This document shows, one piece after another, positions 59,234 to 64,000 of a stretch of 64,000 nucleotides of DNA. Below the pieces are notes generated by a model, which was not told where the DNA came from, made no database searches, and worked only from the letters and a program-made list of their open reading frames with translations. The translations under genes and the position numbers were made by a program. Source of the stretch: Cliona cf. orientalis. Taxonomy: Eukaryota; Porifera; Demospongiae; Clionaida; Clionaidae. How positions within the stretch are numbered: the stretch's first letter is position 1; each line of letters starts with the position of its first letter. The DNA is taken from NCBI GenBank assembly GCA_963930775.1, contig OZ005696.1, positions 8,610,980 through 8,674,979 on the forward strand. Direction: 5' to 3'.

Positions 59234-62200
59234 TCACACTGATAATCTAGCAATAACGTCCTTCATAGAAGGTCTGTCATCTGGAAGGATCTGTAGGCAC
59301 TGTCTAATGACAGGGGCTAGCTGAGATCTACTCTGAATCTTCTTCAAGAGAGCCTCGTTGTCAATCGATTTTGGATCGGGGAACTTTCTTGTGCACATCT
59401 CCAGCAACAGCACACCATAGCTGTACACATCCATCTTTGGGCCCTGCTTTGACGGACTGTTGGCCTCAGGGGCCGCATAGGTTGGGTTGCCAGGACCAGC
59501 GGTTAGCGTGCTTCGGACGAAATTCGCCGAGCCATAATCAGACAGTTTTGCTATCCACTGGTTGTTGAGGCTGGGGTTGAGGAGAACATTAGCACTGCTG
59601 ATGTCTCGGTGGATGACTGGGTCTGGACGCATCAGGTGAAGGTAGTTGAGTGCTCGAGCCACGTCCAGCCCGATGGAGAGAATCTGAGTGGGATTGAGGG
59701 GCTTCTTCTCCAAGACAGATCTCAAGCTGCACGCCATCAGCTCCATTAAGATGATTGGCTCTTTCTCCATGGTGGCACCGATGAACTGCACCAGGTTGGG
59801 GTGTCGCACTCGAGCAGCAATGGTCATCTCTCTCACAAAGAGGTGACGGTTGTAGTCTGAGATTATGAGCTTGTGCATGCGTTTGGCTGCGCACCGCAGA
59901 CCTCGGAATTCTGCCACTTTGACCACACCCCATCCACCCCGCCCAATTTCCTCCTCGGTAAACTCAATCTCCTCGTTAGTCACCACCCAGAACTGATGCT
60001 GGTCGAACTTCTGAAGTGCTTGGTCGCCGGATGACGAATCGGGCTGTAGCCTTGAGCTCTGCAGACTATTTTGTAGCTCATCTCTGGCCTCTTCCGCTCT
60101 CCTTTCAGCCTCCTCCGTTCGCTCTTCGTAACTTGCTCTTTCTCTCTCGGCAATCTCTGCTCTAGTTCTCTCCATGTTCAGCTTCTCTTCCGTGTCACTC
60201 AAGAGATTAGTGAGTGTCTCTATCTCTTCTTCTCTCTCTGTGACTTGCTGTTCAAAGAACTTCATTCTTAGCTCAGTCTCCAGTAGGCGTTCCTTGAGAT
60301 GTTGGAATTCTCCGCTAGAGGTTGAAGCTGCAGTGGTAGTGGTGGCTGTGCTTTCAGCAATGCCAATGATCACTGAAGAAACAGGTACAGCAGGAGTGTC
60401 CTGTGGAATAATGAAAGTTTGCAAAACATAGTATCATCCAAGCACCTATCACAAGGAAACACTACATGTACATGTAGATATAGTTATTACATGCTAGCCG
60501 GCTTGAGTACTAATTTCACAATAATTCAATTACATGGACAATAATAATTATTGTGTTTGATGACTCAAATCAAAACCTAACAATCCTAAGAAATTCTCAG
60601 TGACTATATGTATATCACATGGCACCTGAGGTTGACAATCTTCACTAATTTTGTAGCTCCAGCTACTGTAGCAAAAAAAGTTTATCCCATGAAAAAAATT
60701 AGCTGCATTATTATTATAGTCTTGAGTCTTATCAGGATTCTTACAATGTGAGTAGATAATGAATACGATATTGTGCTCATGCATGCAGCACATCATAGCT
60801 ACCACACTCCACTCCACTCTAGTGGGTACCTACTCACCAAGGAGATAAAGGGGGTATGCAATATTATCACTACCACGGACACACTGTGGACAAGCATATC
60901 CCTATTATAACCATCCAAGGTAAACTACAAAGATAGAAAGATAAGCTCCGTACAACTTTCACATTATACACCCACAATGTCCACTGGGTACTAGGGGCTG
61001 TATTATGCTCTTGCACACACTCTGCAGCATATACAAAGGTTGACATGCAAAGCTGCTGAAATCGGCAGGTATACAACACACAGTATGGAACAGACTGCCA
61101 GTAGAAGAATAATGAATTGTGATGGTCGATCCAGTAGGGAAAACTCACGATATTACATTCCTACTGGACATCTAGACCCATGTATGTACATATATTATAT
61201 GTACCTCAGGTTTGGGTGGAAGAGGGGGGCAATATTGTACTGGCGATTTCATTGCTTTCTCCTCCGTCCCACTGCCGCTCCTAGCTTTGGACTGAATTTC
61301 TTCACCCAGGGTAAGATACGTCTCCAAGCCTCCCTCCTCCCCTTCATCCGAGTCGTCAATGTGAAATCTCGCATCGATCTCTGCCATCGGTGACAATGAA
61401 TCAGGAGGCAAGGAGTAGTACGGACTTGGTTTGTCACAGTTTGAGGAGTCATCATTTTCAACCTCCAAAGGGAGACTGACTGGATTGCTGACACTGCGGT
61501 TCTTCTCCCTGGCTGGGAGCTGAGGTGAGGAGTCGTCGGGAGACACTGGACAATACGGCATACTCGTCACTTTGAAAAGCTTTGTCTTTTTTGAATTCTC
61601 GGCAGCACCAGCAGCTGCCTTCTTCTCTCTCCCGGACCTCCGTGCAGGTACGGGTGGGGTGATGGGACAGAGCTCCTTTGGTGGCTGGGGGGAGCGAGCT
61701 CTCTTGAGTGGAACGGGTGGATTCACACCAGGTGAAGTGGCCATCACGATACCTTCTTTCCCTCGACCTCTCTCCTCCTCCTCCTCCGTTTTCTTCTTTT
61801 TCGATTCTTTCAGCTCTACGTTTTCGTAGCCCTTTCTCGGTGGAATAGTAGGCGGGTGGCTGCCCATCGATATCGAGGTCATAGCCGTAGTTGGTGGATC
61901 TATAGGCTCTTGTCCCTTCAGCTTGATGTTCTCGTAGCTTTTTGAGACCCTTCTAGGGATGAGCGGAGGTGAGGGGGCCACAGCGTCAGGAGGGAGGAAG
62001 TAGTAGACATCTTTGCCCTGGCGGACAGAAGTGGCAGCTGCAGAAAGTGAAGGATGAGATACAAGTCAAAACAGGAAGGACTACCAATATTATTATTAGT
62101 GTGATTTTTTTTCCCCCTAGTTCTGCATCATGGGAAATTTGGAAAAATAGCTCTCAGATGCTTTAAAATTTTGGCAATTTGTGTACTACACAACTTCTGT

Positions 62201-64000
62201 CAAGAGTACACGAGTACATGTATGTGCACACCTTAGGTGCTGTGGATTTATCAAATTTTAACAAACTTAGCAGCTAAACAACACTATATTATTGTCAACT
62301 GTTTGTAGACCTTGCCTCCTTACTTATGTTGCTGTGGACAGCCTCTTCACAAGCCACTACGCCAGAGGATGGGTCTTGGATCCGAGTTGACATCATTGTC
62401 TCCTGAATGGATTAGAGGTGCATTGTGATATATGGTGTTGGATTCCACAGATTATGGTGTTGAACAATAATTGTCAGAACAACACCTGTATGGCCATGGT
62501 CATGCAACAATTAAATGTTTGAGCCCACATGTATCCATGTTTTTCAATGTTTCTCTCTCTCTCTCTCTCTCTCTCTCTCTCTCTCTCTCTCTCTCTCTCT
62601 CTCTCTCTCTCTCTCTCTCTCTCTCTCTCTCTCTCTCTCTCTCTCTCTCTCTCTCTCTCTCTCTCTCTCTCTCTCTCTCTCTCTCTCTCTCTCTCTCCCC
62701 CTTTCTCTCCATCCCTCCTTTCACTCTCTATATCAACTTACAATCGAGATATCCAATTCTGCCTTGCTGCACGACATCTCTTCTTCCACCATCACAGACA
62801 CAGAGCCGTCCCACTGCACTTCAACCGTGACGCTAATCTTTGGCATACCCCTAGGGGCAGCTGCAATCATCAACACTACCTGACCGAGGTAGAGGTTGTC
62901 CCTCGTCACTGGGCTCTCTCCTTCGTAAAAACTCACTACCACCTGCTTCTGATTTTCAGTTATCGTCGTCACTTTAACAGTCTCTTTGGCGGGTAGTTTG
63001 GCATTTTTAGTAATCACTGTGGTCACCAAGCCAGTGGGAGCTTCAATACTGATGCTGGAGGGTAGGGTAGTTTTGAGAATCACGCTACTGATGGAAGGGA
63101 CTTGGTACGTTCGATTTTGCAGGACGGCCGCTAAAAGCGCAGATCCGTGTGCAGCCGATTCTGAACTCAGCAGCTGCAGCTCTTTCCCATTGAAAAAGTG
63201 TCGGATGAGCTCTTGAATTTTCGGCACGCTACTCCCCTCCCCCACGAGGAGAATATCGTCGACTTGGTTTATACCTAGCCTTCCACTGTTGCAGCTGCGA
63301 AGAGCACCCTCTATCTCGTCCATTAGAGCCTTAAAGATATCGCCACAGAGATCTTCGAGCTTTTCCCGAGATATTCCAACCTCACAGTTGTACAGTTGAA
63401 AGGTGATGGTGGCCTTATTTGAAGTGGATAGTTTTCTCTTTGCCGCGGCTGCGGCAAGTCTCAGTGTACGGATGAAGGGTTTATTCCGCGGGATGTCGTG
63501 TCCGATCTTCTTTTTGAGCTCCTGGAGGTAGTAATCGACAAGGACGTGATCGACTTCGCTGCCAGAAACGTCGCAGGTGCCAGAAATCGATTTAACTTCG
63601 TACGTGGTACCTAGTGCACCCATAACCACAACACTCAGGTAGCCCGCTCCAAGATTAACCACGAGAATATTCCTCTCTTTCGTCGAGTTTGCAAAAGTGG
63701 CCTGTTTCTCGATGCAGTGTGCTAGACCAGCAGCTGTTGCCTCATTGACGGTGCAAAGTACATTCAACCCGGCTTCTTCGCAGAATTGGTGAACAAGTTT
63801 TCGCTGTAGGAGGTTGAAGCAAGACGGTACAGTTACTACAGCGTCTCTCACTGGCATACCGAGGCTGTTGAACGCATTTTCGACAATCTTCTCCGTCAGG
63901 GTGGTCATGAGTTGCTCGGGGGAATAATTGGTAGGTATTCCTTTGCACTTGACTCGAATAGCAGCTAGCTGGGTCTTCTCGTCCGGAACCAGCTCGATGG
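59234..64000 (-). CDS. HSP70-TKL-2: HSP70 domain fused to Tyr/Pro-rich linker, coiled coil and TKL kinase (cut by right edge)
   Basis: Exons: 64000-62742 (HSP70, N-terminus outside), 62402-62324, 62037-61205 and 60400-59234. Junction phases 0, 1 and 0 agree on both sides, giving one frame of at least 1,111 aa. HSP70 part: AVVTVPSCF, VNEATAAGLAHC, VVNLGAGYLS, VDDILLVGEGSSVPKIQEL, then a substrate-binding beta region. Asp199 and Asp206 of canonical HSP70 read Asn and Ser, so ATPase is doubtful; subdomain IIB is retained. The linker has SYENI, GYENV, YYSLPPDS, TYLTLGEE, YCPPLPPKP and several PxxP cores, plausible SH2/SH3 ligands. The last exon has a Glu/Arg-rich coiled coil of about 100 residues, then a kinase: GRGGWGVV, CAAKRMHK, HRDISSANVLL, DYG, APE. 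An active TKL-type kinase regulated by an HSP70-like sensor is inferred. A chimera of two adjacent genes is the alternative. Confidence 0.8.
62552..62697. repeat. (CT)n microsatellite in the first visible intron of HSP70-TKL-2
   Basis: About 73 CT units lie on the plus strand (GA in the transcript), starting 45 bp after the exon donor. The matching place in copy 1 (about 13630-13670) has only short interrupted CT tracts. ORFs made of alternating Ser-Leu or Glu-Arg across it are artefacts. Confidence 0.95.

Follow-up and report, generated by a model that had tools for sequence, protein, structure and literature searches.

A predicted spliced gene joining an HSP70 part to a TKL-type kinase, beside a Death-domain gene array in Cliona cf. 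orientalis

Results

Gene model

We analyzed a stretch of 64,000 nucleotides from Cliona cf. orientalis, referred to as the window (C8:8610980-8674979 of an assembly of 216,785,154 bases, or 216.8 Mb, in 149 contigs), in which a minus-strand gene is predicted to join an HSP70 part to a protein kinase of the TKL type. Exon 1, of which 62742-64000 lies in the window, encodes a nucleotide-binding domain and a beta substrate-binding domain, as judged from the frame 63998-62742, Pfam and an alignment to Hsc70. Intron 1 (62403-62741) begins with the donor GTAAGT and carries a (GA)n microsatellite at 62552-62709; it is followed by exon 2 (62324-62402), whose 79 nt supply 26 residues and one base. A proline-rich linker is encoded by exon 3 (61205-62037). 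After intron 3 (60401-61204), the 5’ part of exon 4 (59987-60400) encodes a coiled-coil-like stretch identified by a simple heptad count only, and the 3’ part (59234-59986) a kinase domain with the motifs HRDISSAN, DYG and APE, ending in a stop codon at 59236-59234. A sequence-only reading of this DNA had claimed four exons with agreeing phases and one open frame, which was borne out: the segments 63998-62742, 62402-62324, 62037-61205 and 60400-59234 join into a single frame of 1111 residues plus stop, with GT/AG at all junctions and phases of 0, 1 and 0. The proposed order of HSP70 region, linker, coiled coil and HRDISSAN kinase likewise stands, Pfam matching HSP70 (PF00012, E=2.1e-75, profile 92-496 of 599 for the in-window part) and Pkinase (E=2.5e-36), with the coiled coil placed by the heptad count. 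Beyond the window the HSP70 exon extends stop-free to an ATG at C8:8675289 (window-equivalent 64310, assembly stretch L029), so that exon 1 comprises 523 codons and the predicted whole protein 1215 residues: HSP70 (523), linker, coiled-coil-like stretch and TKL-type kinase. The genome-level PF00012 match covers profile 1-558 with two TGA codons inside, which must sit beyond the end of exon 1 since that exon is open.

Splice sites were ranked by a consensus with rough weights. By this measure donors 1-3 fall at the 97.8, 97.2 and 92.8 percentile among the 3815 GTs of the window’s minus strand, and acceptors 1-3 at the 98.9, 99.4 and 98.9 percentile among its 4593 AGs. The position of intron 1 can be compared with kinase-less HSP70-like paralogs in the window, here called HSP2 (51969-50330, 40008-38802, 27042-25859 and 2417-945, minus strand), which have a shortened ATPase domain with the motif N-x-GAG and belong to four units of the neighboring gene array described below. 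In unit 1, HSP2 exon 1 (50617-51969) encodes the shortened nucleotide-binding domain, and a predicted exon 2 (50330-50452) a 40-residue tail; the intron between them has the same phase and domain position as intron 1 of the fusion gene. A donor of phase 0 after the beta substrate-binding domain is found in all three HSP2 copies with the end present (units 1, 3 and 5); units 1, 2 and 3 show a second exon, whose tail is His-rich where seen. The HSP2 and fusion donors both lie 28 residues past a shared VT pair, by an ungapped count into which MAFFT places two offsetting 7-residue gaps. Remnant copies at three other loci (L031, L032 and L034) likewise have GTAAGT as the donor after exon 1. Because the HSP2 donors and second exons match and GTAAGT is kept in these remnants, exon 1 looks built for splicing. 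The open frame, the strong splice sites and the same-phase intron after the same domain in kinase-less paralogs thus support the prediction that HSP70 and kinase belong to one spliced gene, as the sequence-only reading had supposed.

That reading had also reported a repeat of the exon set, phases included, at a distance of 48 kb. This copy, termed copy B (13.9-10.3 kb, minus strand), retains exons 2 (13407-13485), 3 (12289-13124, the linker) and 4 (10336-11493, coiled-coil-like stretch and kinase in an open frame), of 79, 836 and 1158 nt, together with junctions 2 and 3. The claim fails for the HSP70 exon, of which an end remnant of about 75 codons is left (13707-13932), with an internal frame change and the donor GT altered to AT; upstream of it lies a kinase fragment containing a stop (13938-14038). 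Differences from the fusion gene amount to 27/146 in the part of intron 1 compared, 4/79 in exon 2 (all within the first 12 nt, with both ATGs lost), 16/281 in intron 2, 15/833 in exon 3, 4/795 in intron 3 (0.5% divergence), 36/1158 in exon 4 and 18/117 in the 3’ flank. Since intron 3 is more alike between the copies than the exons are, the similarity from exon 3 to intron 3 looks like a recent gene conversion tract (12288-11494 against 61204-60401), and the agreement of phases in copy B is therefore not independent evidence. For these reasons copy B was rejected as a separate line of proof for the gene model: it has neither a whole HSP70 exon nor donor 1, and its exon 3-intron 3 segment is apparently converted.

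The HSP70 part

Over ATPase and beta substrate-binding domains the in-window HSP70 part is identical to Hsc70 (HSPA8) at 146 of 384 aligned residues (38%, E=1e-70). Among positions with known functional roles in HSP70s, P147, R155, E175, K271 and R272 are retained, as are D10 and K71 in the exon start outside the window, whereas D199N, G202A, T204Y, D206S, E268A, G339E, S340G and R342S are altered. The phosphate-1 motif with D10 and the catalytic K71 were both found, as IGLDLG and FKRLLGR, with M in place of the first T of DLGTTYS. The phosphate-2 motif DLGGGTFD, in contrast, reads NLGAGYLS, and the interdomain linker shares 1 of 12 residues with that of Hsc70, so that the hydrophobic linker of a functional chaperone was not found. 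A helical lid is absent: exon 1 stops about 12 residues beyond Hsc70 position 493, and the part downstream has no HSP70 match.

Within the same genome, DLGGGT is kept in all five canonical-looking HSP70 rows compared, and N-x-GAG is found in the fusion and in all five HSP2 rows. A tree was built from these 11 rows, comprising the fusion and 10 of 20 PF00012 loci picked as long frames (five HSP70s and five HSP2). The five HSP70s lie on one side of a branch (100/99), and the fusion together with HSP2 on the other; the fusion branch is long (1.28), and the program warned of possible long-branch attraction, which makes the placement unsure. The fusion thus differs from Hsc70 in phosphate-2 motif, interdomain linker and missing lid, and stands on its long branch outside the group of five HSP70s.

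The predicted HSP70 part is, on these comparisons, without normal chaperone character. NLGAGYLS, the changed interdomain linker and the missing lid make peptide-driven ATP cycling unlikely, and a docking or sensing module appears likelier than the role of an ATP-cycling chaperone.

Linker and kinase

Exon 3 has no Pfam domain. Motifs were counted in residues 420-724 of the in-window protein (exons 2-3) and compared with 5000 shuffles; they are short and were picked after reading the linker, so that the shuffle counts overstate the surprise. PxxPx[KR] occurs six times against a shuffle mean of 0.8 (equaled by 1 of 5000 shuffles), and YEN[VI] and YYxLPPD twice each (equaled by none of the 5000). 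We take PxxPx[KR] and YEN[VI] to be SH3 and Grb2-type SH2 ligands, respectively; class I SH3 motifs were absent from the linker, with 0.79 expected. The ratio of nonsynonymous to synonymous substitution rates (dN/dS) of the linker was 0.60, 0.20, 0.33 and 0.30 in four pairs of copies.

The best matches of the kinase in PDB are CTR1, TAK1, plant receptor kinases, MLK, DLK and TNNI3K, followed with weaker scores by the tyrosine kinases CSK, BTK and ITK and by TAO2. Kinase group names, TKL included, follow common usage, and the TKL placement denotes these nearest PDB matches. When aligned to CTR1 and TAK1, the catalytic Lys (AAK), the alpha-C Glu (RE), HRD, Asn (HRDISSAN), Asp (DYG) and APE are all retained. 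Kinase sequence and catalytic motifs are thus shared with the TKL kinases CTR1, TAK1/MAP3K7, MLK, DLK, TNNI3K and roco4, which have DFG where the fusion has DYG; to our knowledge none of them carries HSP70. For the kinase, the three pairs of intact copies had dN/dS values of 0.12, 0.10 and 0.13, with gene conversion reducing the divergence of some of the pairs used for dN/dS. These values indicate that the predicted kinase is under purifying selection, with its catalytic motifs intact.

No Death domain was matched by Pfam in the fusion chain, the scan covering the in-window part of exon 1 and exons 3 and 4. Kinases of the RIPK/IRAK type differ in having a Death domain in the kinase chain, whereas here Death domains lie in the neighboring genes. 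Viral contigs were rejected as a source of relatives, as they gave none for the kinase or for the HSP70 exon. Bacterial and archaeal genomes yielded one myxobacterial kinase match at 29%. Among 10 of 248 matching plasmid records, all were below 60% identity and none covered 80% of the query.

Related loci in the genome

Genome-wide match counts are lower bounds. The linker exon has at least 7 matches at at least 6 loci. At L031 and L034 the kinase is broken into pieces in different frames, and at L032 no kinase was found within the 9.9 kb taken. PF00012 has at least 66 matches, three of which adjoin a linker locus by position: the window gene, the remnant in copy B and a stop-containing piece at L033. 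When 17 of the 20 listed PF00012 loci were checked for linker and kinase, with a reach of about 1.5 kb past the match, only L009, the fusion gene itself, matched. At L031, L034 and window positions 14822-10336, kinase tails stand behind Ras/Roc-Death genes, at the place that HSP2 occupies in other units, and each is preceded by a kinase fragment of the same stretch. The three tails probably go back to one duplication that spread to several loci.

The neighboring gene array

The fusion gene is followed by five minus-strand units of about 12 kb, each with short repeated domains D1-D3, a Ras/Roc-like region and a Death domain. The five tandem Ras/Roc-like and Death genes (52385-54841, 40386-42887, 28576-31353, 14514-17053 and 2615-5072) each have an open frame of 702-818 codons; in unit 1 (52385-54841) the Ras/Roc-like GTPase region and a C-terminal Death-like domain share the same open reading frame (ORF). 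Units 2-5 match Pfam Death with 26.9-29.9 bits against a cut-off of 22.6, and unit 1 falls just below it with 21.6. A further minus-strand gene of unit 1 (56884-58839) carries D1 (58839-58597), D2 (58056-57775) and D3 (57183-56884), which are Death-like by look only and had no convincing Pfam match. A Death fold for D2 was rejected, the AlphaFold model being mainly helical with a mean predicted local distance difference test score of 65.5, too weak for an assignment. Of the four HSP2 genes, that of unit 1 is intact, those of units 3 and 5 are split between frames and that of unit 2 is rearranged at both ends; in one unit the place of HSP2 is taken by copy B. Since the 14.5 kb past the start of the HSP70 gave no match to D1-D3 or Roc, the fusion gene stands at the edge of the array.

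Discussion

We give about an even chance to the reading that this is one gene for an intracellular signaling kinase, with an HSP70-derived docking or sensing module, an adaptor-recruiting linker and coiled-coil clustering of a TKL-type kinase. The HSP70 part, without an ATP-driven folding cycle, would dock to or sense a partner, for which an extended peptide, a client or an HSP70-like protein of the same cluster are candidates. The linker would act as a platform recruiting SH3/SH2 adaptors, and the coiled coil may gather kinase domains for mutual activation. Association with Death-domain and Ras-like neighbors, the sole pointer here, suggests a role in stress or immune signaling. A more specific version is tentative and in our view doubtful: a retired HSP70, pseudo-ATPase and lidless, could be the sensor of a class of eukaryotic kinases, holding a peptide or an HSP70-like partner of the Death-domain cluster, whose release or binding would cluster the TKL kinase with its SH2/SH3 platform and lead to a stress or cell-death response. 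Should it be transcribed as one protein, the gene would be a genomic case in which a chaperone fold has been turned into a kinase's regulatory half, in what is probably an early-branching animal and beside Death-domain genes. If true, the reading would offer a direct test of HSP70 substrate binding gating a kinase, as well as a case of a pseudo-enzyme HSP70.

Several observations weigh against this reading. A whole HSP70 is found at only one of six linker loci, that of the window gene, and copy B and L033 retain an open kinase without a whole HSP70, so that HSP70 may be dispensable. With D10 and K71 kept, the HSP70 part may still bind ATP. For selection on HSP70, the fusion gene has the single intact exon; its comparison with a remnant, over 63 codons with 5 synonymous and 7 nonsynonymous changes, gave a ratio of 0.36 and is too short. 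At L032 one ATG of exon 2 is kept while acceptor 1 is altered, and at L034 acceptor 2 is lost and exon 2 was not found by word search. The choice of linker motifs after reading and the plain heptad count stand on the same side.

The join could instead be a passing by-product of a fast-turning array, in which the kinase is what works and the HSP70 was attached by neutral accident and is being lost. A whole HSP70 is missing from five of six linker loci; of the other five kinase tails, two (L031 and L034) are broken and L032 yielded none; and of the window’s four HSP2 genes, three are broken or rearranged. However, the HSP70 exon is open across 523 codons at only 30-38% identity to other HSP70s, which would be hard to maintain without selection, and dN/dS lies below 1 for kinase and linker; we regard a by-product as rather unlikely. 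It is quite improbable that the protein is a working chaperone-kinase whose HSP70 captures unfolded or foreign peptide while cycling ATP and thereby turns the kinase on; activation by such peptide was an idea put forward in the sequence-only reading. The beta substrate-binding domain is as Hsc70-like (37/97) as the ATPase domain (108/275), and D10, K71, E175, R272 and the P147/R155 pair are retained, but D199N, T204Y and D206S, the interdomain linker with 1 of 12 residues identical and the missing lid speak against such a cycle. Least probable of all is a pair of genes, namely a kinase gene starting from an exon 2 ATG and an HSP70 gene that ends just past exon 1 or in some short exon not seen here: reading through exon 1 gives ATT GTA AGT TGA, a stop after two further codons, the HSP2 paralogs finish in a short second exon without kinase, and exon 2 has two ATGs, of which L032 keeps one beside its altered acceptor. 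Against two genes, donor 1 ranks high (97.8 percentile) and survives in three remnant copies. Acceptor 1 (98.9) is strong too and is shared by copy B, which has neither of the exon 2 ATGs, and inspection of intron 1 by eye showed no HSP2-like second exon.

Comparison with known systems

Kinase and HSP70 domains in one chain have been described for a Kinase+HSP70 protein of Pirellula, in which a bacterial kinase precedes a C-terminal HSP70 (Krupa and Srinivasan 2005, PMC1262709). According to the abstract of that paper, no eukaryotic kinase family was known to have such combinations (PMC1262709). Compared by architecture and not by sequence, the fusion predicted here has the opposite order, a linker, a coiled-coil-like stretch, a TKL-type kinase and introns. 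No eukaryotic HSP70-kinase gene was found in the open-access literature searched, which leaves subscription papers mostly outside and includes no eukaryotic protein database, so that one may exist unremarked. Within this literature the sequence-only description of the architecture as rare holds, with the bacterial Kinase+HSP70 published and no eukaryotic one surfacing.

Other systems resemble the fusion in part. DNAJ-PKAc of fibrolamellar carcinoma is described as a tumor fusion that ties a kinase to the HSP70 chaperone system, its chaperone-binding domain recruiting Hsp70, whereas here HSP70 itself would be part of a genomic gene (PMC6533061). TRADD-N proteins of oyster can bear HSP70 domains and thus likewise have HSP70 as a module of animal immunity- or death-type proteins, yet lineage and architecture differ and the part of the report available names no kinase (PMC8195603). 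Two sponges given microbial molecules showed changes in transcripts of hsp70 and of Death-domain genes, and kinase transcripts fell in one of the species and rose in the second (PMC6208332). The available sections of this sponge report contain nothing on an HSP70-kinase architecture.

Other features of the window

Plus-strand ORF pieces that resemble helical repeats recur at about 48200-50100, 24700-25350 and 36980-37330. Pfam gave no match for three pieces of the first of these, and none that was convincing for a set of four ORFs scanned besides D1-D3; Rfam gave no match at gathering scores. The CpG observed/expected ratio is 0.53, and the introns and Death domains are as expected for an animal. 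At 21639-22017 lies a tandem array of 42/90-bp units with a strong excess of C on one strand, GC skew being -0.122 over the 20-24 kb interval that covers it.

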